Of a stretch of 64,000 nt of DNA, positions 28,404 through 63,335 are shown one piece after another; position 1 is the stretch's first letter, and the number at the start of each line of letters is the position of its first letter. A program made the position numbers and the translations under genes. Below the pieces are notes generated by a model that searched no databases, was not told the DNA's origin, and was given only the letters and a program-made list of their open reading frames with translations. Source of the stretch: a virus; IMG/VR virus record IMGVR_UViG_3300023257_000007, positions 186,001 to 250,000 of that record. One strand, 5' to 3'.

Positions 28404-28796
28404 ATGAAAAATTTTTTAAATTTTATAAATAATAATCACGAATATTCAAATAATGAAATGAATAAAATTATTAAATTCATTGGCAAATTATGTAAATATG
28501 AAAACAAAAAAGCAAACGCAATATTCAATTTTAACATATCAAAAAATATACTTAATGATACAGATTTTAATGCATCAGTAAGATCAAATAACATATATTC
28601 AAACGATATAAAACAAGTTACAAAAATACTTGATAAAGTATGCGAAAAATTAAATATGTATCCAACAATAAATATTATGATTAATACATTTGGTAGATCA
28701 ACAAATTATAATATTAACTGTACATTTGAATTTACAGAAAAAAATAAATTAGACATTCTTGCAACTATAGAAGGAAATAAATTAGGACTATTATAA
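28404..28796 (+). CDS. hypothetical tagged protein, 130 aa (C-terminus NKLGLL)
   Basis: Starts MKNFLNFINNNHEYSN, a weaker version of the N-terminal tag, and ends EGNKLGLL, the leftmost intact member of the C-terminal tag family on this strand. The middle is mixed alpha/beta (KQVTKILDKVCEKLNMYPTI). The stop is directly followed by the next ATG (TAAATG), so the two are coupled. Promoter-like TTAATATATACTAG precedes the start. Confidence 0.65.
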   Translation: MKNFLNFINNNHEYSNNEMNKIIKFIGKLCKYENKKANAIFNFNISKNILNDTDFNASVRSNNIYSNDIKQVTKILDKVCEKLNMYPTINIMINTFGRSTNYNINCTFEFTEKNKLDILATIEGNKLGLL

Positions 28797-29141
28797 ATGA
28801 AACATCTTAAAAAATATAACGAAGAGAAAATAGAAAATAAATGGAAAAATACAATAGTAATTTATGAATCTTACTCGGATTCATGGGTATATGTAGATGG
28901 TTCATTGATATCAGAATGGTCTGTTACCATATTTGATATATTATTAATATTATCAGAGGATAATGTTAATATATTGAAATATAAAATATCAATGTTAACA
29001 GATCATTTTCCTCAAAATATAATTGATCATTTAAACGATCACCCAGAACAAGAATTTCCAATGTATGATTTAGATATATATGAACAAGAAATAATAAAAA
29101 GAAAAGCAGAAAAAGAAGGACAAAAAATGGGTCTGTTTTAA
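28797..29141 (+). CDS. doubly tagged hypothetical protein, 114 aa (MKHLKKYNEE...KMGLF)
   Basis: Carries both shared ends: MKHLKKYNEEK at the N-terminus and GQKMGLF at the C-terminus. Between them is a strand-rich part (NTIVIYESYSDSWVYVDGSL) and an acidic helix. No known family. First of three consecutive genes or remnants with the same two ends. Confidence 0.6.
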   Translation: MKHLKKYNEEKIENKWKNTIVIYESYSDSWVYVDGSLISEWSVTIFDILLILSEDNVNILKYKISMLTDHFPQNIIDHLNDHPEQEFPMYDLDIYEQEIIKRKAEKEGQKMGLF

Positions 29142-29142
29142 A

Positions 29143-29466
29143 ATGAAACATATTTCAACATATAACGAATACTTACAAACACCCTTAAATTTATCAATAC
29201 CAATATAGAAGATAATGATAAATTTACAAATTACCTAGAACAATCAAACCTAATATCAAAAAATTCTTTATTTAGAACATATCATAAAGGATGTATATAT
29301 CATACATTTTTAATATCAATTATAGATAATCATTCTTAAAAATTAGTTGTTCAAACCCAGATAATGTATCTGGGTTTGAACAAAAAGGAGTAAATGAAAT
29401 ATTATTTGATCCAGATATAATTATATAATTATAAGATTAGAAGCAAATAAAATGGGATTATTATGA
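29143..29466 (+). pseudogene. broken doubly tagged gene (MKHISTYNEY...NKMGLL)
   Basis: The ATG frame reads MKHISTYNEYLQTPLNLSIP and stops. A second frame continues EDNDKFTNYLEQSNLISKNS to a stop, a third has CSNPDNVSGFEQKGVNEILF, and a last one ends RLEANKMGLL. At least three frame breaks separate recognisable N- and C-terminal tags, so this is a decayed paralogue. It contains a 15-bp perfect inverted repeat. Confidence 0.7.
29349..29381. repeat. perfect 15-bp inverted repeat
   Basis: GTTCAAACCCAGATA and its exact reverse complement are separated by ATG only. It lies inside a broken gene and has no T-run after it, so it is not a simple terminator. Confidence 0.85.
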
Positions 29467-29744
29467 AATATTTAAAGACATACAACGAATCAAAATATAA
29501 ACCATCATATACTGCACGCCCAATGCCAGATAAATATCGGCTTAGATGTGAATATTTAATAGATAAATACGGTAAACTAAATACAAATAATAAAATTACA
29601 CATTTATCAGAAGAATCAGAAATTTTACAAATAGATATAAATGATGATTATAGATTAGATATTTTTAAAACTACTGATAAATCGTTACTTAATATGAGAG
29701 AATTAGAAATGAAATTACAAGCAAAAGAATTAGGATTGTTATAG
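29463..29744 (+). CDS. doubly tagged hypothetical protein, 93 aa (MKYLKTYNES...KELGLL)
   Basis: N-terminus MKYLKTYNESKYK and C-terminus KELGLL. The middle (PMPDKYRLRCEYLIDKYGKL, NNKITHLSEESE) is a paralogue of the minus-strand protein at 30.2-30.6 kb (LMPDKVFNRCLYLLDKYGEK). Its ATG overlaps the TGA of the broken upstream copy. Function unknown. Confidence 0.65.
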   Translation: MKYLKTYNESKYKPSYTARPMPDKYRLRCEYLIDKYGKLNTNNKITHLSEESEILQIDINDDYRLDIFKTTDKSLLNMRELEMKLQAKELGLL

Positions 29745-29806
29745 ATTTAATGAAAAGGGGAATTTATATTATAATATATTTAATGTATCATAATTTAGCA
29801 CCTTTT

Positions 29807-30192
29807 TTATAATAATCCCATTTGATTTGCCTGTTTAACATTATCGAGTGATATACCAACATTTTTTTCTAACCAATTTTCAATTGTAATATAATTGTAT
29901 TTTTTATAATCAGGATCTTGTAAATTATTTTGTAAATATACCATACTACCCCCAATTAAAATCATAATCTTTAACATTAAATATTTCATAATTTTCTTGA
30001 GAAATAGATATCAGAAAATAACTAGGTCTACCACCAGAATAACGAAAAATATAATCATAATCTATATCAATATTATAAAAATCATCATATAATGAAAATA
30101 ATACAAAATTAATACATAATATATGTATACATAATATTAAAACAGATGATATAAAATTATTAGAAAAAATATGTTGTTTTAAGGTATTTTAT
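29807..30192 (-). pseudogene. broken doubly tagged gene whose start codon is mutated to ATA
   Basis: The junction with the upstream gene reads TTATAAAATACCTTAAAACA where intact copies have TTATGAAATA. One G to A change is silent for the upstream stop but turns the downstream ATG into ATA. The remnant then encodes KYLKT, further frames (IDYDYIFRYSGGRPSYFLIS), and finally WLEKNVGISLDNVKQANQMGLL-type sequence ending in the tail. A 60-aa open frame from 29989 keeps the end intact and could still be made. Confidence 0.65.
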
Positions 30193-30575
30193 AACAATCC
30201 CATTTTTTTCGCAGTTAATATTTTTTCTATTTCAGAACCTAATAAAAATGCATTTAATTTTATGAGTATAGAATTATCTAAATCATCATATTGTACATTT
30301 CTTTCATATTCACTATCTGATAAATTATAATAATAAATAATACCGGTTGTATTAATATTACTTTGATAAATGTCAAATTTTAAATCATCTAATTTTATTT
30401 TTATTAAATTAGTAGATGTAGATCTACCATAAAGATCAGATATTCTATTATTACCATCATTATTTTTTTCACCGTATTTATCTAGTAAATATAAACACCT
30501 ATTAAATACTTTATCAGGCATTAAATAACAATGATTTCTATTAATTTTTTCTAAATATGATTTCAAATATCTCAT
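30189..30575 (-). CDS. doubly tagged hypothetical protein, 128 aa (MRYLKSYLEK...KKMGLL)
   Basis: N-terminus MRYLKSYLEKINRN and C-terminus TAKKMGLL on the minus strand, which shows that the tails do not depend on the rightward arrays. The middle (LMPDKVFNRCLYLLDKYGEK, RISDLYGRS) is paralogous to the rightward gene at 29.5 kb. The divergent start region shared with the next gene has TTAAATATATAAG-like sequence on both strands. Confidence 0.65.
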   Translation of the reverse strand: MRYLKSYLEKINRNHCYLMPDKVFNRCLYLLDKYGEKNNDGNNRISDLYGRSTSTNLIKIKLDDLKFDIYQSNINTTGIIYYYNLSDSEYERNVQYDDLDNSILIKLNAFLLGSEIEKILTAKKMGLL

Positions 30576-30616: not shown

Positions 30617-30919
30617 ATGAAATACCTTAAAACATATAATGAAAATAAATCATTTAATGATAAAGTTAATATGATTAAAAAAATAGTAGACACCGTTGGT
30701 AAAACTGATGATAGAGGTAAAATTTTAAATTTAAACTATAAATCAAAAGGTTCTAAAACCTATCTTTTAAAAATTCAAGATACATGCTGGATAAGTATTG
30801 AGATGATAGGTACAAGATTTTTAAGAAATTTAGATTCTAGAGTAATTGAATCTATATATAAAGAATTAAAAGAAAAATACCCAGAGTTTTTTATGGGAGA
30901 TAAATTAGGTATTTTATAA
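30617..30919 (+). CDS. doubly tagged hypothetical protein, 100 aa (MKYLKTYNEN...KLGIL)
   Basis: N-terminus MKYLKTYNENKSFNDK and C-terminus GDKLGIL. The middle (NMIKKIVDTVGKTDDRGKIL) is helical, then strands. ATATATAAATAATATG precedes the start, matching a T4-type late promoter core TATAAATA. Last gene before the gene-free stretch. Confidence 0.65.
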   Translation: MKYLKTYNENKSFNDKVNMIKKIVDTVGKTDDRGKILNLNYKSKGSKTYLLKIQDTCWISIEMIGTRFLRNLDSRVIESIYKELKEKYPEFFMGDKLGIL

Positions 30920-31408
30920 AATAAAAGTCTTAAAAAATTTTCCAAAAAAATTTTCCAAAAAAATTTTAGAAACAAAATCCCAGTTTCTAAGTTATACTTT
31001 GTAACGGATACCCAAACGTAATTATATTATATATTATATTATATACACTTTTTAAATTTACACTTTCTGACAAATACTTAATATCTACTACAAAACAGTT
31101 ACTAATTTAAATGAACACTACTTACTCTATAAAAACAAACTTACTATTCTGTGATATAAAAAGTACTCTATTTACTATAAAATAGTTAATACCTTATATA
31201 GATAATACTTTATTTTAAAATAAACTTCTTTATATTATTTAAAATAAACTTCTTCATGACCTCATATATTCACTATATCTATATATGTAGATAGGTGGCC
31301 CGTGAGCTATTTTTACTTATTATTATTAATCTTAAATTAGGAGGATTTTTATAATCCTTATCTATTATTATTTTTTTGTCATGGATCATTGTGACATCTT
31401 TTTTTATT
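30920..31408. other. AT-rich gene-free region at the transcription and composition switch
   Basis: No credible gene. It contains long A/T stretches (TATATTATATATTATATT near 31030), two direct repeats, and CTATATATGTAGATAGGTGG near 31278. Left of it C exceeds G on the shown strand in many genes and both strands are used; right of it genes are rightward and the shown strand becomes G-rich. An origin or terminus of replication or a master regulatory region is plausible. Confidence 0.5.
31213..31254. repeat. two direct repeats TTTAAAATAAACTTCTT
   Basis: A 17-bp sequence occurs twice with a 24-bp period in the AT-rich stretch. Iteron-like arrangement, but only two copies. Confidence 0.75.
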
Positions 31409-31440
31409 TTTATATTAAGGTTGCTTTCCTTATCTTTGTA
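31409..31440 (+). promoter_or_regulatory. promoter of the rightward tagged array
   Basis: CCTTATCTTTGTA with TATCTTTG at 31431. The ATG at 31441 follows the box by 2 nt, so the transcript is probably leaderless. Confidence 0.7.
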
Positions 31441-32013
31441 ATGAATAAAAATTATAATGAGATGGAAAATTATTTTAAAATTGAACATGGAAGAAAGGTT
31501 GAGACATACACACCTAAAGATACATATGTATTAACATGGAATGAAAGACATGGTGATGCTGATCAAAGTATGCCTACATCTATGACTATACACAGTATGG
31601 ATGAGTTATGGTTCATGTTATGGTTTAGTAAGTGGTTAGATAGATACAGACAGTATAGTGACTTAGATGAGTATAGTAAGGTACTTAATAAGTATAGTAA
31701 GGAGTTATTGGGTAGTAGTTGGTATATAACTGATTGGTGTAGTGATGTGTATGATCATGATTGTATATATTCTAGTTGTTATTGTGGTGTGGATGCCATG
31801 AAGTTATATTATTATGATGAGCATGGTGTTAAGTATGAAGAGGAGATTGATGGTAGTACATATATATCTTTAGTGAAGATGGGATATAAGTTAGATTGTT
31901 GGTTCATTGATAAGTATCCACATATAGCTAATGAGTTACAGGGTATGATATGTGATGCTGCATTGGAAGATAAGAAGGATGTTATTGAGGCTAATAAAAT
32001 GGGGTTGATATGA
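31441..32013 (+). CDS. tagged hypothetical protein with YYxDExGVK motif, about 190 aa
   Basis: Start chosen at 31441, directly after the -7 box; MENYFKIEHG at 31462 is an alternative and 31381 lies upstream of the promoter. The protein contains MKLYYYDEHGVKYEEEIDGS, a motif shared with the genes at 36.1 and 52.3 kb, and ends EANKMGLI. It has many Trp, Tyr and Cys (SSWYITDWCSDVYDHDCIYS). Codons are visibly G-richer than those of the left half. The stop overlaps the next ATG (ATGA). Confidence 0.65.
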   Translation: MNKNYNEMENYFKIEHGRKVETYTPKDTYVLTWNERHGDADQSMPTSMTIHSMDELWFMLWFSKWLDRYRQYSDLDEYSKVLNKYSKELLGSSWYITDWCSDVYDHDCIYSSCYCGVDAMKLYYYDEHGVKYEEEIDGSTYISLVKMGYKLDCWFIDKYPHIANELQGMICDAALEDKKDVIEANKMGLI

Positions 32014-32342
32014 TAGATAAGAATATAGTTATAGTATCGTATAGTAAAGAGGAGTTTAATTATGTATTGAATCTATTTAAATCTAGGGAGTTCAGTAGGT
32101 CTACGATTGATTCGTATCTACGTTACGTTAATGATGATGGTCATTATAATGATTATGTATATCCTATTGCATTAATTGTGAGGTTTAAATTAATGTCAGC
32201 AACGTGGCAGTATAAAGATATGTGGGATCATATTAATGATTTATTAGATAGGGGTGAGGTTGATAGTGTTATTGATTGTAAAGATTTCAAAGAGATGGGT
32301 GGTGATAATTATATTGAAGGTATTAAATTAGGTTTACTTTAA
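32010..32342 (+). CDS. tagged hypothetical protein, 110 aa (IKLGLL)
   Basis: Ends EGIKLGLL. N-terminal NIVIVSYSKEEFNYVLNLFK has the strand-helix pattern common to the array proteins. Coupled to the upstream gene by ATGA overlap and followed at once by the recurrent TTTAGAAGGTATTCC promoter. Confidence 0.6.
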   Translation: MIDKNIVIVSYSKEEFNYVLNLFKSREFSRSTIDSYLRYVNDDGHYNDYVYPIALIVRFKLMSATWQYKDMWDHINDLLDRGEVDSVIDCKDFKEMGGDNYIEGIKLGLL

Positions 32343-32414: not shown

Positions 32415-32732
32415 ATGACATATAAGGTATTGATTAAGGTTCGTAATGAATCTGAATGGATATCATGTTGTGATATGTTGTATAGTCATGGTTATCGATG
32501 GCAAGACAATTGTATGGACTCAAAGAAGATACATGGATATAAGTTGATAAGTGAAGGTGATATATATTTAGTTATATATAATCATACTGACCCTCATCAT
32601 CATGATGATCGTTTATTTTATAATACTAATGTTAATGTTGATATTTATGGGCCGGATGTTATTATAATTAATTATGTTGAAGGTATGGATTTACATGAGA
32701 TAATAGAAGTTAATAAATTGGGATTAATATGA
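32415..32732 (+). CDS. tagged GYxW-family protein, 105 aa (NKLGLI)
   Basis: VLIKVRNESEWISCCDMLYS followed by HGYRW is nearly identical to the next gene (IKVRNESEWVSCCNMLYSHG), so they are recent tandem duplicates. C-terminus EVNKLGLI. The fold pattern is strand, helix, GYxW, strands. Coupled to the next gene by ATGA. Confidence 0.65.
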   Translation: MTYKVLIKVRNESEWISCCDMLYSHGYRWQDNCMDSKKIHGYKLISEGDIYLVIYNHTDPHHHDDRLFYNTNVNVDIYGPDVIIINYVEGMDLHEIIEVNKLGLI

Positions 32733-33064
32733 TAGTATTTAGTAAAGATATAAAGAAAATAAATATTAAGGTTCGTAATGAATCTGAATGGGTATCATGT
32801 TGCAATATGTTGTATAGTCATGGTTATCATTGGAATGTTGAGTCTGATTTTATGGAGATATATTCTGAATGTTTAGAAACTGCTAAGGAATATATTAAGA
32901 CTTATGCAATAAATGATGGTATATATTTAGTTGTTTATAATGATAATAGTGGACGGTTATATTATAATTATAAATATAAGACTGATGGTATAATAAATCT
33001 TGATTGGTATGATGGTATGGATTTACATGAGATAAATGAAGCTAATAAATTGGGGTTAATATGA
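32729..33064 (+). CDS. tagged GYxW-family protein, 111 aa (NKLGLI)
   Basis: Tandem paralogue of the preceding gene with diverged middle (EIYSECLETAKEYIKTYAIN); shares DGIYLVVYN, RLYYN and MDLHEI near the end and EANKLGLI at the tip. ATGA overlaps on both sides. Confidence 0.65.
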   Translation: MIVFSKDIKKINIKVRNESEWVSCCNMLYSHGYHWNVESDFMEIYSECLETAKEYIKTYAINDGIYLVVYNDNSGRLYYNYKYKTDGIINLDWYDGMDLHEINEANKLGLI

Positions 33065-33366
33065 AAGAGAAGATATACATAATATTAAATAATATAGATG
33101 ATTGGATTAATTGTTGTAATCAATTAGACAATGAGGGATATTTTTGGGCAAGAAGTAGTGACTCATATAAAGATAAATATCATAAATGTAAAACTTTCGG
33201 TAATCCTGAAAATTATATAGTAATAGGTCATAATGAGTATGATGATAATCGTTTATATTATGGTAATATATATAATGATAAGAAGTTTGATGGTATTATT
33301 TTATATTGGGATGCTGATGTAGATTTAGAAAGTTATTTTGCAGGTTTAAAAATGGGATTATTATAA
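33061..33366 (+). CDS. tagged GYxW-family protein, 101 aa (LKMGLL)
   Basis: More diverged member: IYIILNNIDDWINCCNQLDN, EGYFW, RLYYGN, then AGLKMGLL. Last gene of a four-gene overlap chain. Confidence 0.6.
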   Translation: MKEKIYIILNNIDDWINCCNQLDNEGYFWARSSDSYKDKYHKCKTFGNPENYIVIGHNEYDDNRLYYGNIYNDKKFDGIILYWDADVDLESYFAGLKMGLL

Positions 33367-33376: not shown

Positions 33377-33493
33377 ATGTTTGACCAGGGAGAATTTAGG
33401 TTGGAGGAAAGGGGATATTTTTATTTGGTGAAGGTTTGTTGTGTATTTGTGTATAAATTAAAATGTAAAAAAGATTATGATAAAATGGATTAA
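33377..33493 (+). CDS. possible 38-aa peptide
   Basis: MFDQGEFRLEERGYFYLVKV, then Cys-rich and Lys-rich. It overlaps the following gene's start by 17 nt. A GACCAGGGAGAA string recurs at 55.5 kb. Could be a gene remnant; weak support. Confidence 0.25.
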   Translation: MFDQGEFRLEERGYFYLVKVCCVFVYKLKCKKDYDKMD

Positions 33494-33857
33494 TATAAGG
33501 CTGGAAGGTTATGGTAAAGGTAAAGGTAAAGGTAAAGGTAAGAAGAAACTGAATAAGATGGTTATGCGTAAATTGTTACATCAAATTGATTGTAAGGTTG
33601 GTTTTCGTATTAAGGATGGTGGATGGAAACCAGTTTTAAATAGTTTAAAAGAATATAAGCATTATAAATATATATGGATTGCTATATGTCCTTTTGGTAA
33701 AGATATGGCTGCGGATTATCATGAAAATAAAGAAGAATGGGAGAGTTATAAAGACGGTATTGAGGCGGATGAAGCTGAGGTATGGTTGAGTTGGGAAGAG
33801 TTTATGGATTTAGATATTCAGATGATTGTTAATGGTTCTAAAATGAATTTATTATGA
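33477..33857 (+). CDS. tagged protein with (GK)n basic repeat, 126 aa (SKMNLL)
   Basis: After MIKWINIRLEG comes GYGKGKGKGKGKKK, a short GK repeat encoded by tandem GGTAAA units (33513-33543). The C-terminal part (WLSWEEFMDLDIQMIVNGSK) ends in MNLL, the same variant as the remnant at 20.6 kb. The opening WINI and overall plan are shared with the next gene and with the 60.1-61.2 kb genes. Basic repeat may bind nucleic acid. Confidence 0.6.
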   Translation: MIKWINIRLEGYGKGKGKGKGKKKLNKMVMRKLLHQIDCKVGFRIKDGGWKPVLNSLKEYKHYKYIWIAICPFGKDMAADYHENKEEWESYKDGIEADEAEVWLSWEEFMDLDIQMIVNGSKMNLL

Positions 33858-34246
33858 AAGATATAAAGTGGATAAATATAATGTTAGACTGGGATAAGTT
33901 TAAGTGGGAACAATTCCATGATGTTGTTGATTATTATAAAGAGTTATTTCCTAAATTAGATTGGACAACTGTTCAAACTGAGATACAGATACATGATAAA
34001 ATTCGAAATGAATCTGTTTTTGATATTTTAGGTTTATCTATATGTTTGGAACATGATAGTAATGATTTTAATATTAATAATTGTGAAAATACTATAAATA
34101 ATTGGCATCCTGTTATATTTAAGTATGGTATTGGTGATGATTTATATGACAAGCAAACTGGTATTGAAATAATTGTTAAATATAGTAAAGATTTCCGTGA
34201 AGAGATTGAGTTTTATTTAGAGGGTTCTAAAATGGGTTTATTATGA
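33854..34246 (+). CDS. tagged protein of the WINI...YxKxF family, 130 aa (SKMGLL)
   Basis: IKWINIMLDWDKFKWEQFHD resembles LQWINIFIKYDDFTWKIYDE of the 60.1 kb gene, and both end with FREEIEFYLEGSK- or FKEEIEMLL-type sequence before the tail. Hence array genes here and 26 kb away are paralogues. ATGA overlap with neighbours. Confidence 0.65.
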   Translation: MKDIKWINIMLDWDKFKWEQFHDVVDYYKELFPKLDWTTVQTEIQIHDKIRNESVFDILGLSICLEHDSNDFNINNCENTINNWHPVIFKYGIGDDLYDKQTGIEIIVKYSKDFREEIEFYLEGSKMGLL

Positions 34247-34575
34247 AAAAAACAATAATATTTTTACATAACAATAAGGATTTGGGCAACTTGTTCATGT
34301 ATTTACATGTTATTGGATGCAAATGGTCTAGTGGTAGACCTATTATAATAGATAGTGAAATACAAAGATTTAATTTATCTTGTTCTAGATCTAAATCTGT
34401 TGCAATTATCGTTGATGATGGTAGTCTTACTTATGTATCAAATAAGAAAGATATTGTTTATAGTTATATATCTGGTGATAAATTTAAATATTATGATCAT
34501 TATGAGTATGTAGATTTTGATAAGGAGTTTGATATTGATGTAACTATTAATGGTAATAAGATGGGATTACTTTAA
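34243..34575 (+). CDS. tagged YLHxxGxxW paralogue 1, 110 aa (NKMGLL)
   Basis: First of three consecutive paralogues: TIIFLHNNKDLGNLFMYLHV, IGCKW, RSKSVAIIVDDGSLTYVSN, YYDHYEYVDFDKEFDIDVTI, then NKMGLL. Followed by a promoter nearly identical to those at 32.3, 35.3 and 39.8 kb. Confidence 0.65.
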   Translation: MKKTIIFLHNNKDLGNLFMYLHVIGCKWSSGRPIIIDSEIQRFNLSCSRSKSVAIIVDDGSLTYVSNKKDIVYSYISGDKFKYYDHYEYVDFDKEFDIDVTINGNKMGLL

Positions 34576-34627: not shown

Positions 34628-34963
34628 ATGAAAATGATAATATATGCACATAATGACGAAGATATTTATAAGTTATCAACTTATTTACATTATATTGGAA
34701 TTAAATGGCAAACTGAAATTTTTATTATGAATGATGGTGAAATGACAATAGATTGTAATAGAGCTGAATCTAAATCTATTGCATTTTGTGTTAAAAATAA
34801 TCGTGTGTCATATATGAATGATGGTGGTTCTTTTGGTGGTGATGTTTATAATTTTTTCAAAAGGCAACCATATGAATGTTATGACCATTATGAGTATATT
34901 GAATTTGATAAGGAGTTTGGTGTTGATATGGTTTTAGAATCAATAAAGATGGGTTTATTATGA
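34628..34963 (+). CDS. tagged YLHxxGxxW paralogue 2, 111 aa (IKMGLL)
   Basis: MIIYAHNDEDIYKLSTYLHY, IGIKW, SKSIAFCVKNNRVSYMNDGG, CYDHYEYIEFDKEFGVDMVL, then SIKMGLL. Preceded by its own promoter and an AAAGGAGG site, unlike most array members, which rely on coupling. Confidence 0.65.
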   Translation: MKMIIYAHNDEDIYKLSTYLHYIGIKWQTEIFIMNDGEMTIDCNRAESKSIAFCVKNNRVSYMNDGGSFGGDVYNFFKRQPYECYDHYEYIEFDKEFGVDMVLESIKMGLL

Positions 34964-35325
34964 AAAAAACAATAATATATGTACATAGTGATGAGGATAT
35001 GATTAATTTATTAAGTTATTTACATTTTGTTGGAGTTACATGGCATGGCTCTGCTATTATAAAAGATGATGATAGTTCCGATAATTTTTTTAATGCCGAT
35101 GCCAGATATATAGATATTAGTTGTAAAAAAACGGGAACTGTTGGATTTTGTATTGATCAAGATGATTATATTACATATATGGATGATGGTACTTTTAAAG
35201 GCGAGAATGTTTATGAATATTTCGGTAGAGATTTTATGGAGTATGATCATTATGAGTATGATGAATATGTTGAAAAGTTTGATATTGAACCACTCATAAA
35301 TGGAATAAAGATGGGTTTACTTTAA
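34960..35325 (+). CDS. tagged YLHxxGxxW paralogue 3, 121 aa (IKMGLL)
   Basis: TIIYVHSDEDMINLLSYLHF, VGVTW, TGTVGFCIDQDDYITYMDDG, EYDHYEYDEYVEKFDIEPLI, then GIKMGLL. Same arrangement as the two preceding genes with an insertion near residue 45 (SSDNFFNADARYIDIS). ATGA overlap with paralogue 2. Confidence 0.65.
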   Translation: MKKTIIYVHSDEDMINLLSYLHFVGVTWHGSAIIKDDDSSDNFFNADARYIDISCKKTGTVGFCIDQDDYITYMDDGTFKGENVYEYFGRDFMEYDHYEYDEYVEKFDIEPLINGIKMGLL

Positions 35326-35377: not shown

Positions 35378-35632
35378 ATGAAAAAGAAACAAAATAAAAA
35401 AGAAGAGAGTAAATATCAATACAGAAGTGATACTGCTGTTAGGGTTGAAGAAACTGAATATAGTGTAAATGAGTATGACGAATGGGATCGCATAGTATTT
35501 TATTTATGGAAGAAGAGTGGTTATTGGTCTGTGAATGTTTTTGCTCCTGTAACTGATGGTAAAAGGGTTTCATTAGAACCTTTACAAGTAATTCATAAGT
35601 ATTGGACATCTTATAATAAATTATCAATATGA
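35378..35632 (+). CDS. hypothetical protein, 84 aa, no tail
   Basis: Highly charged N-terminus (MKKKQNKKEESKYQYRSD), then YEYDEWDR-like aromatic segment and VNVFAPVTDGKRVSLEPLQV. Untagged gene within the array, with an AAGGAG ribosome site, coupled to the next gene by ATGA. Confidence 0.55.
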   Translation: MKKKQNKKEESKYQYRSDTAVRVEETEYSVNEYDEWDRIVFYLWKKSGYWSVNVFAPVTDGKRVSLEPLQVIHKYWTSYNKLSI

Positions 35633-35895
35633 AAAGATTAAATATATTTGTAAGAAGTGGATTACAGCAAACGTTGTTTCTACATTATTTATATACTAAT
35701 GGTTATAGTTATAAAGATAGAAAGGATCTTTATTGGAAATTTACTAATGGTTCAGGTGCTATTGTGGTTAATGTAATTGATAAAATAATATTAGGTGGTA
35801 ACACAGGTTGGTTTGCAACACAATCACATATGAATGTAAAAGAATTTGTTGATAAGGCGTGGGAATTTGAAAGTATGAGGATTGGTGTATTATGA
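35629..35895 (+). CDS. tagged protein with variant tail MRIGVL, 88 aa
   Basis: RLNIFVRSGLQQTLFLHYLY, NGYSY in the GYxW position, and SMRIGVL at the end, an outlying variant of the shared tail. Coupled to the untagged gene before it. Confidence 0.55.
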   Translation: MKRLNIFVRSGLQQTLFLHYLYTNGYSYKDRKDLYWKFTNGSGAIVVNVIDKIILGGNTGWFATQSHMNVKEFVDKAWEFESMRIGVL

Positions 35896-36692: not shown

Positions 36693-36920
36693 ATGATAAA
36701 ATATAAAATAACAGATGAAAAAATTGAAGTAGGCGACATTGTTGCTTATGGAATAACATGGAGAGAGAAACGTGTAAGAAAGCACGGTTATGTACTTGGT
36801 GTTTGGGAAGAATATTGGGATGAGGATTCACAGAAGTTTAGAAATAAGGTTGAATGTGTTGATAAAGATAATCATATAATTCGTAGTGAAGAATGGTTAA
36901 AAAAGGTGGTATTGATATGA
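36693..36920 (+). CDS. hypothetical protein, SH3-like, 75 aa
   Basis: Strand-rich sequence with a turn (EVGDIVAYGITWREKRVRKH, GYVLGVWEEYW) suggests a small SH3/KOW barrel. It ends overlapping the next ATG by ATGA. Function unknown. Confidence 0.55.
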   Translation: MIKYKITDEKIEVGDIVAYGITWREKRVRKHGYVLGVWEEYWDEDSQKFRNKVECVDKDNHIIRSEEWLKKVVLI

Positions 36921-37222
36921 TAAAACGATATTATAAAATAGGAATAGATATTCCTGATAATAAATTTGTTAAGTTGATATCAGATCATTTATATTCTTTG
37001 GGTTATAAATGGTGTAGTGATTTTAGAGACGAATCTTTTTATGATAAAGTAACGAATGAATGTATAAGAAGTAATGTGCGTGGTATTGGTGTTGAATGTA
37101 ATGGTCGCATGAGTTACAATGTTGTTAAAAATCAAACTGAAAAGTGGTATTCTCTTGAAGAATATGTAATAAAATATGATTTAGTGATTGAATATGAAGG
37201 ATTAAAAATGGGTTTATTATGA
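36917..37222 (+). CDS. tagged LYSLGYKW paralogue, 101 aa (LKMGLL)
   Basis: Start set at 36917 from the ATGA overlap. NKFVKLISDHLYSLGYKWCS, then NECIRSNVRGIGVECNGRMS and KWYSLEEYVIKYD match the 58.2-58.9 kb genes (VVNHLYSLGYEWCGG... GIGVEHGRISYNV... KWYDIDEYVEKYD) across 21 kb. C-terminus LKMGLL. Confidence 0.7.
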   Translation: MIKRYYKIGIDIPDNKFVKLISDHLYSLGYKWCSDFRDESFYDKVTNECIRSNVRGIGVECNGRMSYNVVKNQTEKWYSLEEYVIKYDLVIEYEGLKMGLL

Positions 37223-37854: not shown

Positions 37855-38169
37855 ATGGCAAACAAAAAAGATTTAACAAACGCAATTGCAATAGCTACAG
37901 GCAAAACAAAAAAAGATAGCAAAGAATTAGTAAACGTCATAATGGCATCTATTAAATCTGAATTAAGTAACGGTGAAGGTTCTATCGTAAAATTAGTAAA
38001 CTTTGGAACATTTAAAGTAGTTAATCGAAAAGCAAGAAAAGGAAGAAATCCAAGGACTGGTGAATCAATTGATATCCCTGCAAAGAATGTAGTTAGATTC
38101 AAAGCTGGTAAAGGTCTTAAAGAAGCGGTTGATTATACTGCTGAAGAAAGAGAAGAATTAGGAATATAA
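37855..38169 (+). CDS. HU/IHF-family DNA-binding protein 1
   Basis: ANKKDLTNAIAIATGKTKKD, EGSIVKLVNFGTFKVVNRKA, then RKGRNPRTGESIDIPAKNVV with the Pro of the DNA-intercalating arm, and FKAGKGLKEAVDY. Full length for the family. It should bend or coat phage DNA. Monocistronic: two upstream promoters and a terminator. Very similar to HU2, less to HU3. Confidence 0.95.
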   Translation: MANKKDLTNAIAIATGKTKKDSKELVNVIMASIKSELSNGEGSIVKLVNFGTFKVVNRKARKGRNPRTGESIDIPAKNVVRFKAGKGLKEAVDYTAEEREELGI

Positions 38170-38221: not shown

Positions 38222-38245
38222 TTGAAAAAATTCCTTATATTTGTA
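38218..38245 (+). promoter_or_regulatory. promoter abutting an ATG (leaderless)
   Basis: TTTGAAAAAATTCCTTATATTTGTA; TATATTTG at 38236, with the ATG 3 nt after the box. Confidence 0.7.
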
Positions 38246-38246
38246 T

Positions 38247-43033: not shown

Positions 43034-43034
43034 T

Positions 43035-49827: not shown

Positions 49828-49828
49828 T

Positions 49829-49861: not shown

Positions 49862-49884
49862 TAAACAATTAAAGATAAAATATC

Positions 49885-50672: not shown

Positions 50673-50685
50673 AAAAGGAGACAAA

Positions 50686-50964: not shown

Positions 50965-50965
50965 T

Positions 50966-51049: not shown

Positions 51050-51065
51050 CAAAATAATTAAAAAT

Positions 51066-57345: not shown

Positions 57346-57511
57346 ATGAAAAAAACAAGTAAAATGAGGATTGCAATAAAAATAAAATCACCTAAAAAGT
57401 TACATGAAGTATGGTCAGAAATGGATGGTAAGATATCCTAATGATAGAGAAACCATTATTGTAGATTTGGATAACAATGATTTAGATTCTAATAAATTAG
57501 GATTATTATAA
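57346..57511 (+). pseudogene. frameshifted tagged gene (MKKTSKM...NKLGLL)
   Basis: ATG frame: MRIAIKIKSPKKLHEVWSEM then stop at about 57441. Another frame supplies YPNDRETIIVDLDNNDLDSN and KLGLL. One indel near 57430 separates them. Confidence 0.65.
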
Positions 57512-57792
57512 TGTTGTATTATATAAAAGTAAAGGAAGATATGGATATCAGTCGAATAACCGATGTTGTTCCATGGTATAATAATGAGGGTTTAACTTTT
57601 GTAAAATTTGTTAATTGTTATTGTATTGGTTTTTATGATTATTATAATTATTTTGATAATAATGTATCTAGAAAATTATTTTGGTATTCGTATTTTCATA
57701 TGAAAAATGTAATAATTGAGAGAAAGAAAAAGTGTAAAGACATTGATGAATTTTTAAGTTATTACGAAGGATGTAAAATGGGATTGCTGTAA
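57511..57792 (+). CDS. tagged hypothetical protein, 93 aa (CKMGLL)
   Basis: LYYIKVKEDMDISRITDVVP, CIGFYDYYNYFDNN, DIDEFLSYYEGCKMGLL. The start shares one base with the remnant's stop (TAATG). Tail intact. Confidence 0.65.
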   Translation: MLYYIKVKEDMDISRITDVVPWYNNEGLTFVKFVNCYCIGFYDYYNYFDNNVSRKLFWYSYFHMKNVIIERKKKCKDIDEFLSYYEGCKMGLL

Positions 57793-57848
57793 ATGGAGGA
57801 ATTAATTCCACGAACCTATCCAGGAATTAGTTACGTTAGAATTATTGA
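57793..57848 (+). repeat. dispersed ~50-bp direct repeat, copy 1
   Basis: Shares CCACGAACCTATCCAGGAAT and TTACGTTAGAATTATTGAA with copy 2. It has four extra bases (TTAA) near the start relative to copy 2. Confidence 0.85.
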
Positions 57849-57876
57849 ATATGAAATATGCGATAGAAATAAATAA
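57793..57876 (+). CDS. 27-aa peptide from a duplicated segment
   Basis: MEELIPRTYPGISYVRIIEY. Its ATG follows the preceding stop directly and it overlaps the next gene. The same PRTYPGINYVRIIE sequence recurs at 59.4 kb in front of another tagged gene. Confidence 0.35.
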   Translation: MEELIPRTYPGISYVRIIEYEICDRNK

Positions 57877-58183
57877 TATATCAGAGGGTGCGAAATTATT
57901 TGATATTATAGATATAGATTTGGGAAGAATAAAAGGTTTTATAGGTGATAGATATTCTTCAGATAAGGAGATATGGATAGATTTTTTAAAGTTAAGGATT
58001 AATCATTATAATCATTTTAATTCTGTAATAGTTTGTTTTTATGAAGGATTAATTTTTGAAAAGTATATTTATGGTGGTCATATATTTCACAATGTATTGG
58101 GTGATAATTATATAGAATTAAATTGTAATGATATGGATTATATTAAATTATTTTTTGAAGCTAATAAAATGGGATTGTTATGA
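57845..58183 (+). CDS. tagged hypothetical protein, 112 aa (NKMGLL)
   Basis: YAIEINNISEGAKLFDIIDI, DKEIWIDFLKLRINHYNHFN, FFEANKMGLL. M at 57851 (MKYAIEI) is an alternative start. ATGA overlap with the next frame. Confidence 0.6.
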   Translation: MNMKYAIEINNISEGAKLFDIIDIDLGRIKGFIGDRYSSDKEIWIDFLKLRINHYNHFNSVIVCFYEGLIFEKYIYGGHIFHNVLGDNYIELNCNDMDYIKLFFEANKMGLL

Positions 58184-58400
58184 TTATGAAAGAAAGTATT
58201 GAGTATGATTTTAAATTTGCTATAAAGGTGGATGATAAGTTATTAATTAAATTAGTGGTAAATCATTTATATATTTTGGGTTATAAGTGGTATGGGGGTG
58301 GTGATAGGGATGATATATTAGAGGTATGTATTAAATCTAATTATGATGTCATCCTGAATTAATGGAGGATTATGTTAGTATTAAAATGGGATTATTATGA
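58180..58400 (+). pseudogene. LYxLGYKW paralogue with internal deletion
   Basis: Opens MKESIEYDFKFAIKVDDKLL, VNHLYILGYKWYGGGDRDDI, then a frame break; the C-terminal piece HPELMEDYVSIKMGLL appears in another frame and is identical to the end of the third copy. A deletion or recombination removed about 25-30 codons. Confidence 0.7.
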
Positions 58401-58696
58401 AAAAGTTTGAAAACACACAATTTAAATTTGCTATAAAGGTGAGTGGTATAGGATTAACTGAGTTAGTGGTAAATCATTTATATTCTTTGGGTTATGAGTG
58501 GTGTGGTGGTGATAAGTGTGAGGTAATAAATGAATGTGCAAAAAATAATGAACATGGAATTGGTGTTGAACATGGTAGGATAAGTTATAATGTTTATGAA
58601 TGGGATTGTGATAAGTGGTATGATATTGATGAATATGTTGAAAAATATGATGAATTAATGGAAGAATATATTAGTATTAAAATGGGATTATTATGA
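58397..58696 (+). CDS. tagged LYSLGYEW paralogue, 99 aa (IKMGLL)
   Basis: TQFKFAIKVSGIGLTELVVN, HLYSLGYEWCGG, GIGVEHGRISYNVYEW, KWYDIDEYVEKYD, SIKMGLL. Very similar to the next gene and to the one at 36.9 kb. ATGA overlaps on both sides. Confidence 0.7.
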   Translation: MKKFENTQFKFAIKVSGIGLTELVVNHLYSLGYEWCGGDKCEVINECAKNNEHGIGVEHGRISYNVYEWDCDKWYDIDEYVEKYDELMEEYISIKMGLL

Positions 58697-58992
58697 AAGT
58701 TAAAAAGTGTGATTATAAATTTGCTGTAGAGGTAAGTGGTGTATTATTAACTGAGTTATTAGTAGAACATTTATATTCTTTGGGTTATGAATGGTTTAGT
58801 GGTAAGAAAATGAATATAAATGCTCTATGTGAAAGAACAGAATCAAATAAAATTGGTATTGATTATAATGGTAAGATAAGTTATAATGTTCACGAAGAGA
58901 TATGTGATGAGTGGTATGATATTGATGAATATATTGAATGTCATCCTGAATTAATGGAGGATTATGTTAGTATTAAAATGGGATTATTATAA
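58693..58992 (+). CDS. tagged LYSLGYEW paralogue, 99 aa (IKMGLL)
   Basis: DYKFAVEVSGVLLTELLVEH, LYSLGYEWFSG, IGIDYNGKISYNVHEE, EWYDIDEYIECHPELMEDYV, SIKMGLL. The donor or sibling of the deleted copy two genes upstream. Confidence 0.7.
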   Translation: MKVKKCDYKFAVEVSGVLLTELLVEHLYSLGYEWFSGKKMNINALCERTESNKIGIDYNGKISYNVHEEICDEWYDIDEYIECHPELMEDYVSIKMGLL

Positions 58993-59516: not shown

Positions 59517-59717
59517 ATGCATGAAGTTATGAATTATTTAGGTTATTCAGCTAACATGTGTTATTATAATTATGGTTATGTGATATATTATATTGGTTTT
59601 GGTGTGTATAGATTTTGTGAAAATAATAGGTTTACTGAATTAATAAATGATTGTGAAGAATGTAATTTTGAAGAGTTTAAATTTAGTATAGAGTCAAATA
59701 AGATGGGATTGTTATAA
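59517..59717 (+). CDS. tagged hypothetical protein, 66 aa (NKMGLL), probably 5'-truncated
   Basis: MHEVMNYLGYSANMCYYNYG, IYYIGFGVYRFCENNRFTEL, KFSIESNKMGLL. The frame is open upstream through NLYKCDLSNIKKICIKLNDS to PRTYPGINYVRIIE of the repeat, where the 4-base loss disconnects it from a start. So this is likely the surviving 3' part of a ~105-aa gene. Confidence 0.55.
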   Translation: MHEVMNYLGYSANMCYYNYGYVIYYIGFGVYRFCENNRFTELINDCEECNFEEFKFSIESNKMGLL

Positions 59718-59838: not shown

Positions 59839-60102
59839 ATGAAAAAATATTATATAAAATTAGACTATAATAGAGATGAAATTTTTGATTATTGTATGCC
59901 TTATTTCAAGGAGGATATTATTAGTGATATTAAGATTAAAAATGATTTATTTGTATATTTAATATATTATACTCATACTGCGAATTACAATTTTTATACA
60001 AGTTTTTCTAATAAATTATTATTAGGAAGGGATTATATAATGTGTGATAATCTTGAAGAGTTTAAATTTAGTATAGAATCTAGTAGAATGGGATTGATAT
60101 AG
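59839..60102 (+). CDS. tagged hypothetical protein, 87 aa (SRMGLI)
   Basis: KYYIKLDYNRDEIFDYCMPY, FVYLIYYTHTANYNFYTSF, LEEFKFSIESSRMGLI. The EEFKFSIES(N/S)(K/R)MGL end matches the preceding tagged gene, so the last 15 residues are nearly identical. Confidence 0.65.
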   Translation: MKKYYIKLDYNRDEIFDYCMPYFKEDIISDIKIKNDLFVYLIYYTHTANYNFYTSFSNKLLLGRDYIMCDNLEEFKFSIESSRMGLI

Positions 60103-60160: not shown

Positions 60161-60541
60161 ATGAAATTACAATGGATAAATATATTTATAAAGTATGATG
60201 ATTTTACTTGGAAGATTTATGATGAAGTTGAGTTTTATTTTAAATCTAAATATCCTGGTATTAAATGTGTAGGTAAAAAAGAATTAAAATATGCATTAAA
60301 AGATAGATTAGAAGAAAATCATTATTTTCTAGATATTTTTGCTTTTTGTGTAGAATTTTATCCTAAAAGAGATAGATTTACAGTATATACACCAATTGGA
60401 AAAAATTTTGCTGATTATGGTTTATGTTATAATAAATATACTGAAAGTGTTACTTATTATGAATTAACTGTTGATTATGGTGAAAATTTTAAAGAAGAAA
60501 TTGAAATGTTATTAACATCAATGAATATGGGGGTTCTTTAA
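60161..60541 (+). CDS. tagged WINI...FKEEIE family protein, 126 aa (MNMGVL)
   Basis: QWINIFIKYDDFTWKIYDEV, FYFKSKYPGIKCV, TYYELTVDYGENFKEEIEML, MNMGVL. A related broken copy lies at 60.9 kb and further relatives at 33.5-34.2 kb. Confidence 0.65.
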   Translation: MKLQWINIFIKYDDFTWKIYDEVEFYFKSKYPGIKCVGKKELKYALKDRLEENHYFLDIFAFCVEFYPKRDRFTVYTPIGKNFADYGLCYNKYTESVTYYELTVDYGENFKEEIEMLLTSMNMGVL

Positions 60542-60912
60542 TGAAAAAATGGTTAAACATAAAAATTGACATAAATGGTGATATCATGGGCCAAATGGTT
60601 AAGATGATAAATAAAATGAAAAATTTTTATAGTCCAACTTTATCATTTGATAAACATTTAGAAGAATTGTCAGAATCTATAAAAACTATAAAAGAAAACA
60701 GAAGTTTAAAAGATGATAATTTATTTATAAGTTTCTTTTTAGAAAATAATAAGGACTTGAATTTACATGAATCAAGTTTAATGGTTGTAGATTTATGGAG
60801 TGATGATAGATGGAGGGATATCACAAATGAGATATGGATTGAGGATACTAATGTTTTTTTGGAATATGGTTTAGATGCATTATTAGATAGTATAAATATG
60901 GGGTTACTTTAG
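60541..60912 (+). CDS. tagged hypothetical protein, 123 aa (INMGLL)
   Basis: KKWLNIKIDINGDIMGQMVK, LEELSESIKTIKENRSLKDD, EYGLDALLDSINMGLL. WLNI start relates it loosely to the WINI family. Shares one base with the previous stop (TAATG). Confidence 0.6.
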   Translation: MKKWLNIKIDINGDIMGQMVKMINKMKNFYSPTLSFDKHLEELSESIKTIKENRSLKDDNLFISFFLENNKDLNLHESSLMVVDLWSDDRWRDITNEIWIEDTNVFLEYGLDALLDSINMGLL

Positions 60913-60914: not shown

Positions 60915-61240
60915 ATGGAATTAGATTATATAAATATACTTATAAAGTATGATGATTTTACTTGGGAGATTTATGATGAAGTGGAGTCTTATTTTTTATC
61001 GAAATACCCTGATTTAAAATTAGAAGTATTTTTGCTTTTTGTTTAGAAATTCGCCCTGATAATATTAGGAATGTATTTAGAATATACACACCACAAACAA
61101 TAAATTATGCTAAACATGGTTTAAGTTGCAATTCTTATAATGAAGATATTACTTATTATGAATTAACTGTTGATTATGGTGAAAATTTTAAAGAAGAAAT
61201 TGAAATGTTATTAATATCAATGAAATTAGGTTTATTATAA
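60915..61240 (+). pseudogene. broken WINI-family paralogue (KLGLL)
   Basis: ATG frame MELDYINILIKYDDFTWEIY, DEVESYFLSKYPDL, then stop after LLFV. The other frame supplies AFCLEIRPDNIRNVFRIYTP, YYELTVDYGENFKEEIEMLL and SMKLGLL. A deletion near 61025 shifts the frame; the intact sibling is at 60161. Confidence 0.7.
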
Positions 61241-61534: not shown

Positions 61535-61642
61535 AAATCATCGAATCTATTATTGAGCCTGAAAAAATGAATCTTTTATAATAGATTGTCTAAGAATTTG
61601 TTGTAACAAATAATTAAAAAAAATGAAAATAATAAAAAAAAT

Positions 61643-61966
61643 ATGAATTATAGAAAATTTGTGCAAGAACGAATTGGTATTTTTATAGTCTTTACACAAG
61701 AAGATTATAATGAAGTTGTTAAAATCTTTGAATCTATTGGATTAACATTTAATCCATTTTCTAACTTATCATTTAATAGAGTATTTTGTATTACTTTACA
61801 AATAAATCCATGGGGTGGTAACAGAGTTTTCAGGGATTCTTATTCATATAGATCATATTATGAAAGAGAAAAAGAATATTCCAAATTTTGGGATGTAGAT
61901 AAATTAAGAGAAGAGAGTAAAGATTTACCAATAAAATATGAAGCAAGAAAGATGGGTTTATTATAA
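61643..61966 (+). CDS. tagged hypothetical protein, 107 aa (RKMGLL)
   Basis: GIFIVFTQEDYNEVVKIFES, LPIKYEARKMGLL. Its end is convergent with the next gene with a 6-nt overlap, so the two MGLL coding ends lie tail to tail and form an imperfect palindrome (ATGGGTTTATTATAATAGAC... CCAT). Confidence 0.65.
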   Translation: MNYRKFVQERIGIFIVFTQEDYNEVVKIFESIGLTFNPFSNLSFNRVFCITLQINPWGGNRVFRDSYSYRSYYEREKEYSKFWDVDKLREESKDLPIKYEARKMGLL

Positions 61967-62305
61967 TAGACCCATTTTGTTTCCTGTGTGATATATTTTG
62001 AATTCTTTATTATAATCAGCATATTCTTCTAGGCTTTCAAATACTGTAAAAAATGTATTAGAAGAATAATTAAATGCGATGAGGGTTTTATTATAACCAA
62101 TATAATATTCATTGTAACTATAATTGTTAATGCAATGTTCTAATATTTCTTTGTGATGGGCTTCATCTTCATTGGGTTCATCCCAGTATTTATTCAATTG
62201 ACTTCTCCAATAATTAATAAGGCTTGTTACTTCTTCCGGAGTTTTGCAGTTAACTAGGACTTTATCTGATTGTATATTTTCTAAATATGTACTAAGGTAT
62301 TTCAT
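61961..62305 (-). CDS. doubly tagged hypothetical protein, 114 aa (MKYLSTYLEN...NKMGLL)
   Basis: The only minus-strand gene in the right half and the only one there with the N-terminal tag: MKYLSTYLENIQSDK and HTGNKMGLL. The middle (TPEEVTSLINYWRSQLNKYW) is helical. It shows that tag type goes with the gene rather than with the neighbourhood. Confidence 0.65.
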   Translation of the reverse strand: MKYLSTYLENIQSDKVLVNCKTPEEVTSLINYWRSQLNKYWDEPNEDEAHHKEILEHCINNYSYNEYYIGYNKTLIAFNYSSNTFFTVFESLEEYADYNKEFKIYHTGNKMGLL

Positions 62306-62344
62306 ATGAAGATATATATTGAATTTGTTTTTTCAAAATAAATT

Positions 62345-62641
62345 TTGTATTTTATATTTATGAAATTTTATTATTTAGAAGTAAAAGAAAAGGATTGGAA
62401 TGAAGTTATAAACTATATAACTAAAGTTATTCCTATTTGGAATGAAAAGTTTGATATAAGTCTTCCTATTAAACATATTGGATTTTATATAGATCTAAAG
62501 AATGAATTTGGTTTAAATAATGATAATTTATTATTGTTTCGTTATCATAAATTAAATTTTAAAACTTGTGATTATATAAAGTGTAAGGATATAGAAGAAT
62601 TCTTATTTTCTTATGAATCAAGTAAGATGGGATTATTGTAA
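62345..62641 (+). CDS. tagged hypothetical protein, 98 aa (SKMGLL)
   Basis: MKFYYLEVKEKDWNEVINYI (from 62360), DIEEFLFSYESSKMGLL. 62345 or 62360 are possible starts. Paralogous in plan to the 57.5 kb gene (YYIKVKEDMD, DIDEFLSYYEGCKMGLL). Confidence 0.65.
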   Translation: MYFIFMKFYYLEVKEKDWNEVINYITKVIPIWNEKFDISLPIKHIGFYIDLKNEFGLNNDNLLLFRYHKLNFKTCDYIKCKDIEEFLFSYESSKMGLL

Positions 62642-62662
62642 CATTATTAAATAAAACAAAGA

Positions 62663-62986
62663 ATGAACATAGCTATCGAGTTATATACTAAGAAAGAGTT
62701 ATTTAAGGCATGGAAAAAGATGTTAGATTTAGGATATAATTTAGATGTTTGGCATAGAATTTACATGGAGAAGGATTATAATTGGATTGGATTTGATTAT
62801 ATAAAAAAAAGGGGTGGTCTTTATATTTATTTTGATTTAGATGAATATATAATGACTGGTTGGGATGGTTTATATAATATACACATGATTAAATATATTC
62901 CTGATGATATGGATTTTATTATCAATCATATTGATATTGATTCGATTGATTCGTGTATAGAGGGTATTAAATTAGGTTTATTATAG
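62663..62986 (+). CDS. tagged hypothetical protein, 107 aa (IKLGLL)
   Basis: IAIELYTKKELFKAWKKMLD, LGYNLDVW, NWIGFDYIKKRGGLYIYFDL, IEGIKLGLL. Paralogue of the 50.3 kb gene. Confidence 0.65.
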   Translation: MNIAIELYTKKELFKAWKKMLDLGYNLDVWHRIYMEKDYNWIGFDYIKKRGGLYIYFDLDEYIMTGWDGLYNIHMIKYIPDDMDFIINHIDIDSIDSCIEGIKLGLL

Positions 62987-62996
62987 ATTTGAAATT

Positions 62997-63036
62997 ATGA
63001 GATTTTATAGGATCTACTAAAATGGGATTAATGTAA
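62997..63036 (+). pseudogene. remnant of a tagged gene (STKMGLM)
   Basis: Only a start-like MRFYRI and, in another frame, GSTKMGLM with its stop remain, fused within 40 bases. The stop overlaps the next ATG (TAATG), so the coupling site is retained. Confidence 0.5.
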
Positions 63037-63335
63037 TGAATGAACTTGTATATATTAGTGTAAATAATAAGGAACAATATGATAGAGTTATACGTATTGC
63101 TGAAAATAATGGTTTTAAAACAAGAGGTAATTCCTCTTCTTTACCTGTTAATATTTATCTTTGTATTAAGGATGCTGTTGAAGGATCTTGGTTAAAGGAT
63201 GTTATTTATTTTAGTAGTAATGATTATGATCTATATAAAACTGTATTACCAGTTAGGATAAAATGTGATTATGAGGATTTTTCAGAAGAATATTTAAAGT
63301 TTATAACAGAATCAGATAAGATGGGATTATTATAA
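63036..63335 (+). CDS. tagged hypothetical protein, 99 aa (DKMGLL)
   Basis: LVYISVNNKEQYDRVIRIAE, NNGFKTRG, FSEEYLKFITESDKMGLL. Standard array plan with a GFKT at the GYxW position. Confidence 0.65.
   Translation: MNELVYISVNNKEQYDRVIRIAENNGFKTRGNSSSLPVNIYLCIKDAVEGSWLKDVIYFSSNDYDLYKTVLPVRIKCDYEDFSEEYLKFITESDKMGLL

Follow-up and report, generated by a model that had tools for sequence, protein, structure and literature searches.

A common C-terminal tail on small proteins of a huge phage

A 64,000-nucleotide stretch of viral DNA, positions 186001-250000 of the 348,222-bp IMG/VR record IMGVR_UViG_3300023257_000007 (hereafter the window), encodes numerous small proteins that end in nearly the same eight or nine residues. 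This C-terminal tail reads E-[AGS]-x-K-[ML]-G-L-[LI] or a near variant, and it is carried by 154 of the 925 open reading frames (ORFs) of the phage from which the window comes. No paper describing such a C-terminal tail was found in open-access full text, which agrees with the original prediction, made from the sequence of the window, that such a system had not been described before.

From a six-frame translation of the window, ORFs were chosen with a greedy rule that goes by length. Among the 122 window ORFs obtained, 26 end in the strict pattern [KN][ML]GL[LI] and 39 in the broader pattern [MLIF][GN][LVI][LIVFMY]. About seven additional tails lie on broken or short frames (ending at 29466, 49827, 57511, 58400, 61240, 61581 and 63036), which points to gene decay in this region. 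The original prediction had put the number of tails at about 45, and this is right once these remnants are counted with the broad matches. The 31 proteins it had named by position are all present there, or in frame with that position, and most of their ends are as it described; near variants rather than strict matches are KMGLF at 28797, ELGLL at 29463, KLGIL at 30617, QLGLI at 38247, KLGLF at 38598 and RMGLI at 59839.

The genome was pieced together from metagenome contigs. A second record, IMGVR_UViG_3300022868_000009, has the same sequence as the 348,222-bp record and a further 85,475 bp, which gives a union of 433,697 bp. A third contig, IMGVR_UViG_3300022890_000011 (G048; 166.6 kb), has only 1.3 kb in common with the union, at 99.9% identity, and Pfam identifies an IS605 OrfB transposase gene there. 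Of the genes of LR756501, the record of a 735-kb uncultured phage, 24 are matched by G048 and not by the union, 130 by the union only and 6 by both. Because its content is so largely complementary to that of the main contigs, we infer that G048 is probably the remainder of the same genome, which would then total about 600 kb on three IMG/VR contigs. For the same reason we rejected G048 as a sister species that could have served for orthologue comparison, and the count of 154 tails covers the union and G048. The core genes are T4-like (topoisomerase, RNA ligase, clamp loader, ribonucleotide reductase and baseplate wedge) and are nearest to those of LR756501, with 45-56% identity; further relatives are the Lak phages of Prevotella and phages of Tenacibaculum, Chryseobacterium and Flavobacterium. 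Judged by these genes it is a huge T4-like phage, and the further relatives make a Bacteroidota host likely.

In the proteome of the 348-kb record, the strict peptide pattern lies at the very C-terminus in 55 of its 58 occurrences, and the coding pattern AARHTRGGNYTNHTNTRA has 65 matches in that record as against 0 for the reversed control. Across the union there are 58 strict tails, where residue shuffles gave a mean of 0.01, and 122 broad tails, where they gave a mean of 1.75; the broad pattern lets in about two chance matches, such as a 546-residue ORF ending DDAINLL. When C-terminal triplets were ranked with no pattern given beforehand, K.GL., GLL and MGL. came out on top for this genome, with 76, 61 and 49 observed and about 0.3 or fewer expected for each. 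The residue shuffles and the reversed-pattern control rule out chance or composition as the source of the tail.

Aligned at their ends, the 122 broad tails of the union favor D or E at -14 and L or I at -13, followed by E at -8 (59 of 122), A, G or S at -7 (114), K at -5 (92), M or L at -4 (117), G at -3 (111), L at -2 (106) and L or I at -1 (96). Because the search pattern fixed the last four positions only, positions -5, -7 and -8 give independent support. Tail genes are concentrated at 300-380 kb of the union. The proteins are small, soluble, acidic and fast-evolving, and just 1 of the 154 looks membrane-spanning, compared with 30 of 433 other proteins of 60-200 residues.

Different protein bodies carry the tail

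We compared the bodies of the tail proteins within the genome after cutting off the first 12 and the last 9 residues. With the ends removed in this way, no homologue could be detected in the genome for 72 of the 122. The clear body families are leucine-rich-repeat (LRR) proteins (n=11) and ankyrin proteins (n=2), with Pfam matches to LRR_4 (E=7e-28) and Ank_4 (E=2e-5). Iterated profiles, again with tails and N-termini removed, brought together 31 tail proteins among 35 hits in a single divergent alpha/beta superfamily, whose fold has a beta strand, a helix and an LxxxGYxW turn. Over 400 pairs from this superfamily, mean identity is 19% in the body and 64% in the last five residues. A search of PDB folds with the superfamily returned nothing significant, and none of Pfam, PHROGs and PADLOC assigned a function to those window tail proteins that were scanned. 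The bodies look like target-binding or effector modules.

From these comparisons the tail is carried by several folds, one of them much expanded. Recent duplication cannot be the only cause, since LRR, ankyrin and divergent alpha/beta bodies, together with the 72 singletons, all carry the tail; an origin in recent duplicates of one gene, which the original prediction had named as the outcome that would undo it, was rejected, the bodies not all being alignable. Its description of the middles as often unrelated fits the different folds and the singletons and has to be narrowed for at least 31 of the 122, which are very ancient paralogues in one superfamily.

Selection appears to act on the peptide

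Among the 122 tails there are 100 distinct 18-mers, and codon use is near the genome background at most positions. That codons vary had been predicted; a bias at Gly -3, encoded by GGA in 70% of tails and in 41% of internal [ML]G[LI] sequences, had not been mentioned. The prediction that tails occur on both strands and in genes not coupled to a neighbor was also borne out: 61 of the 122 tail genes have a close following start and 61 do not, and two tails converge head-on from opposite strands at 61961-61966. With varied codons, both strands in use and fixed residues outside the search pattern, the simplest reading is, as had been proposed, selection on the peptide at the C-terminus, with a small nucleotide-level component possible.

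A capsid-targeting-like start co-occurs with the tail

Many proteins of this phage begin MKYLKTYNE or similar, which appears to resemble the capsid targeting sequence (CTS) of phage T4. These CTS-like starts were defined by lineage-specific regular expressions, and their association with the tail was tested with one vote per homology cluster, so that paralogues were collapsed. Results from this showed that start and tail co-occur in this phage with an odds ratio (OR) of 7.8 (p=2e-14). About two thirds of the tail proteins have no such start. Because the tail is nearly constant in the alpha/beta superfamily (31 of 35) and the CTS-like start is found in only a few of its members, the tail is the constant element and the start is optional. 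We read start and tail as two signals with different jobs, packaging for the start and docking for the tail. A prohead-protease-like site, looked for in the sequence alone, would have the Glu at -8 in 59 of the 122 tails and the small residue at -7 in 114.

AlphaFold2 (AF2) models were obtained for two groups of tail proteins, with few sequences in the alignment and mean pLDDT of 72.5 and 71.0. In both groups there is a folded core and a C-terminal helix, and the last four residues lie outside the core; the CTS-like start is disordered. In the model of the protein at 30189-30575 (minus strand; start MRYLKSYLE, tail TAKKMGLL), residues 1-16 are disordered and the folded core is followed by a helix at 115-124 and four free residues. 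In the model of the superfamily member at 32415-32732 (tail EVNKLGLI, with the LxxxGYxW turn, also assigned by profile), a helix at 93-101 is followed by free LGLI.

Related phages have other motifs

The original prediction proposed searching related phages for the tail and comparing the result with shuffled termini. The tail proved far above chance in this phage and, among IMG/VR contigs, is confined to it; relatives use other motifs. The baseplate protein links this phage to 45 viral and six phage records, in which the tail matches no more often than by chance. The pattern E[AG]xKMGL[LI] occurs in 3 of 2.9 million viral contigs, all three from this phage, and in bacterial genomes matches are single and scattered.

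In the LR756501 proteome we found about 99 copies of DPYGEE[DEN]W (loci L031, L032 and L054-L090), again with varying codons, and the motif also occurs in the related contigs G004 and G033. In LR756501, 39 of the 99 copies lie within a few residues of the C-terminus and the others follow N-termini, CTS-like among them, or lie in linkers, with up to four copies per protein. Motif and CTS-like start co-occur there (OR 8.8, p=8e-7). No paper on this motif was found in our literature search. In IMGVR_UViG_3300025030_000039 (G036), 13 proteins end NADDFG[FL][FI](DN) or variants of it, and 10 of the 13 have a CTS-like MKYI..Y start (OR 138, p=1e-8); the strict form of this motif was found in no other viral contig. 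In IMGVR_UViG_3300012582_000004 (G006), some 30 small proteins have RxxxxIxELL-like ends, and these are not associated with CTS-like starts (0 of 20). No shared tail was detectable in two other relatives, G012 and G013.

The replacement can be followed in homologous LRR proteins, which end NPDLYNANKMGLY (KMGLY) in this phage and DVANADDFGFFDN (NADDFGFFDN) in G036. In IMGVR_UViG_3300035698_010599 (G005), positions 362-11800 hold a tandem array of LRR proteins beginning MKYIKEYNEYVDPFNEEDWDEVE, in which DPFNEEDW directly follows the N-terminal MKYIKEYNEY. Among these homologous sequences the LRR body is retained across lineages and the motif is the lineage's own. On a visual alignment only, NANKMGLY and NADDFGFF may be diverged forms of one motif.

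A possible docking tail and the alternatives to it

Our preferred reading, which we hold tentatively and at somewhat less than even odds, is that the tail is a lineage-specific short linear docking motif that would tether hypervariable accessory proteins to one partner, with a subset possibly packaged as well. The original prediction, of a sorting, packaging or degradation signal read by one receptor, is supported in part; the single partner is presumed here. The tail would supply the final turns of a helix (D/E-L/I-x4-E-[AGS]-x-K) that leads into a free hydrophobic C-terminus, [ML]-G-L-[LI]-COOH. Some 150 accessory proteins would be marked in this way with a constant handle for one phage-encoded or phage-recruited partner. 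This partner, presumably acting inside the infected cell, would hold, or work with, whatever the variable body binds, and the subset with a T4-like capsid-targeting N-terminus would be packaged, injected and active at once in the next cell. The basis of this reading is the tail itself, its statistics, its spread over unrelated folds, its replacement from lineage to lineage and its co-occurrence with the CTS-like start, while the exposure of the last residues comes from low-depth models. As a comparison, poxvirus ankyrin proteins combine a variable target-binding body with a C-terminal F-box that docks to one machine (PMC9414399). The arrangement here is alike in having a variable body, such as LRR or ankyrin, and a constant C-terminal element, as the contrast between body and tail identity in the superfamily illustrates. 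However, the F-box is a folded domain that binds Skp1 and the phage tail is a peptide of 9 residues with a putative partner, so that the analogy is mechanistic only. The bacterial AAA+ adaptor SspB has a similar plan, with a C-terminal peptide that tethers it to ClpX.

A wider idea, to which we give slightly less credence, is that the phage group has a peptide-addressing system in which every lineage uses an address of its own (KMGLL, DPYGEEDW, NADDFGFF or RxxxxIxELL) and one co-evolving receptor, and in which a large, rapidly replaced set of plug-in accessory proteins is recruited simply through gain of the address. Such a system would amount to a modular platform for effectors or adaptors, for which no phage counterpart has been described. 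The function of most huge-phage genes is not known, and a shared address would place about one sixth of the genes of this phage in one system and could serve as bait for finding the common partner. If true, it would also give a rule for spotting accessory proteins in other huge phages, by their gain of the lineage's own motif, and would show how a phage can rapidly fit many new genes to a machine that it already has. That 154 proteins of one phage have a common C-terminus of 8-9 residues and that sister phages have different ones would be unexpected to a specialist.

Several points weigh against the docking idea. No receptor was identified, and the absence of a detectable shared tail in G012 and G013 suggests that phages of this group can do without such a system. 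The co-occurrence with CTS-like starts also fits loading into the virion, and some constraint at the nucleotide level is possible in view of the Gly codon bias. Since only one phage has the tail, there is no orthologue pair to compare, and selection is deduced from paralogues and from the independent logo positions.

Virion loading is the main rival, although we consider it rather unlikely. The tail would then be a C-terminal counterpart of the T4 CTS or of an encapsulin cargo peptide, binding the prohead core or an HK97-fold shell, and diverse internal proteins would be packed and injected. T4 internal proteins are a diverse set whose sole common element is an N-terminal targeting peptide of about 10 residues (PMC3012670; PMC7697877). 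The likeness is that one short terminal peptide is the only element in common among diverse small effector or anti-defense proteins of a T4-like phage, and that this phage also has CTS-like N-termini co-occurring with the tail; with homologues collapsed, such co-occurrence is seen in three lineages. By contrast, the T4 peptide is N-terminal and cleaved, whereas the tail lies at the exact C-terminus, often without a CTS-like start, and varies between sister lineages. Encapsulin cargo-loading peptides are likewise short (about 10 residues) and mostly C-terminal; their binding site is a hydrophobic pocket in an HK97-fold shell, and they are sufficient to address diverse proteins to that shell (PMC7355545). 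However, encapsulins have a few cargos as against about 150 phage proteins, the tail does not belong to the cargo peptides by sequence, and neither shell nor pocket was identified here. The large share of tail proteins without a CTS-like start also speaks against loading, as does the redundancy of a second packaging signal on the rest. In addition, the G006 motif never accompanies a CTS-like start, and the prohead-protease-like Glu at -8 is present in just under half of the tails.

We regard as improbable the third-ranked idea, that the tail is a C-terminal degron for a host or phage AAA+ protease that keeps early accessory proteins short-lived. A free hydrophobic C-terminus on small soluble proteins would suit such a role, and the phage encodes a Clp-family ATPase (phrog_4871). 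However, in our own reading of its sequence this protein is ClpB-like with no evident ClpP-binding loop, and it is common to relatives that have other motifs or none, so that it is a weak candidate for the protease receptor. Moreover, the LR756501 motif can be internal and present up to four times per protein, unlike a C-degron, and the tail, with its [ML]-G-L-[LI] logo, does not resemble ssrA (LAA).

Still less probable is that the tail proteins all go back to very old duplications of a single gene and that the C-terminus is merely the slowest part of their fold. The iterated profile does unite 31 tail proteins with their tails removed, but LRR, ankyrin and singleton bodies bear the tail too and the homologous LRR proteins of relatives end differently; this explanation is already largely refuted. 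We give very little weight to a DNA- or RNA-level element at gene ends, whether for translation coupling, as the ribosome site of the next gene, or as a recombination site or cassette boundary. The GGA bias and the half of the tails that adjoin a following start would favor it, but the many distinct 18-mers, the near-background codon choice elsewhere, the uncoupled half of the genes and the head-on tails at 61961-61966 speak against it, and a purely DNA-level element was mostly rejected, with the GGA bias remaining.

Least credible of all is a sliding-clamp-binding motif as on T4 gp43, gp55 and gp33, where an interchangeable short C-terminal peptide is likewise common to unrelated phage proteins; we rejected it because the T4 epitopes, which sit on proteins of replication and transcription, combine hydrophobic and acidic character (PMC2988020) whereas 92 of the 122 tails here have Lys at -5, and because the C-terminal part of the phage polymerase ends DEFENFDDWGF and the polymerases of relatives end LSLF, SSLF or IFSGF. 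DDWGF, DDFWDF, DDFWN and DDFWL ends, on the polymerase part and on other proteins (ORFs starting at 42106, 59398, 73569 and 286713 of G000:C1), are likely a second C-terminal motif of this phage. By their sequences, the DDWGF/DDFWDF-type ends fit the T4 clamp-binding C-termini better than the tail does and are probably sliding-clamp binding.

Tail-bearing genes and other features of the window

Tail-bearing features of the window lie on the plus strand unless noted. A CTS-like start precedes the tail, as seen from ORF and tail, at 28797-29141 (MKHLKKYNEE, EGQKMGLF), 29463-29744 (MKYLKTYNES, QAKELGLL), 30617-30919 (MKYLKTYNEN, MGDKLGIL) and, on the minus strand, 61961-62305 (MKYLSTYLEN, TGNKMGLL), which overlaps the stop of its neighbor; the modeled protein at 30189-30575 described above is of the same kind. 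Other tail proteins recognized by ORF and tail are at 28404-28796 (EGNKLGLL), 29807-29989 (minus strand, short; QANQMGLL), 32010-32342 (EGIKLGLL), 33854-34246 (EGSKMGLL), 57511-57792 (EGCKMGLL), 57845-58183 (EANKMGLL), 59517-59717 (ESNKMGLL), 59839-60102 (ESSRMGLI), 60541-60912 (DSINMGLL), 61643-61966 (EARKMGLL) and 62345-62641 (ESSKMGLL). Variant tails at other ORFs are NGSKMNLL (33477-33857), TTKKLGLS (39043-39474), DCRSLGVL (39490-39810), ESNKFNLI (50346-50672), DAGKLNLI (51009-51380) and TSMNMGVL (60161-60541). Two larger tail proteins, of 210 residues at 31381-32013 (EANKMGLI) and 225 residues at 52285-52962 (EAANLGLL), have weak matches to phrog_8562.

Besides the modeled protein at 32415-32732, profiles assign to the alpha/beta superfamily the proteins at 32729-33064 (EANKLGLI), 33061-33366 (AGLKMGLL), 34243-34575 (NGNKMGLL), 34628-34963 (ESIKMGLL), 34960-35325 (NGIKMGLL), 35629-35895 (variant tail ESMRIGVL), 36893-37222 (EGLKMGLL), 38241-38567 (NAKQLGLI), 58397-58696 (ISIKMGLL) and 58693-58992 (VSIKMGLL). 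Iterated profiles add those at 41366-41689 (ESLKMGLL), 62663-62986 (EGIKLGLL) and 63036-63335 (ESDKMGLL). The superfamily member at 38598-38903 (ESFKLGLF) matches phrog_17589. The tails on broken or short frames, read from the sequence, are EANKMGLL (29440-29466), VSIKMGLL (58374-58400) and ISMKLGLL (61214-61240), all closing broken frames, the last with a remnant that resembles the end of 60161-60541; EGQKLGLL (49801-49827) in a 60-residue open frame; and DSNKLGLL (57485-57511), the variant EPEKMNLL (61555-61581) and STKMGLM (63010-63036) on short frames.

Between 306 and 325 kb of the union there is a cluster of early-type TCCGTATATTTG sites. Promoter-like sites with the consensus TCCGTATATTTGTA, which lie downstream of a T-rich block and are Bacteroidota-like, cluster at 31000-54000 of the window and are absent from most of the genome. 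Sites resembling TTAATATATA are widespread in the union before many large genes, for instance upstream of window position 30189, and are perhaps a late promoter. Promoter timing did not separate the models because tails are found with early-type sites, with late-like sites or with neither.

Two Clp/ClpB-family ATPases are encoded in this one phage, at G000:C1:65936-68092 and in the G048 ORF at 113199. An IS605 OrfB/TnpB gene lies at G000:C1:259161-260327, and a copy of it seems to interrupt the assembly contigs of the phage. In the window, positions 42250-51050 hold nine tRNA genes and an RNA ligase. Three HU-type DNA-binding proteins (37855-38169, 45725-46159 and 51802-52110; PF00216 for the two tested) have the common end TAEER[EA]ELG[LI].

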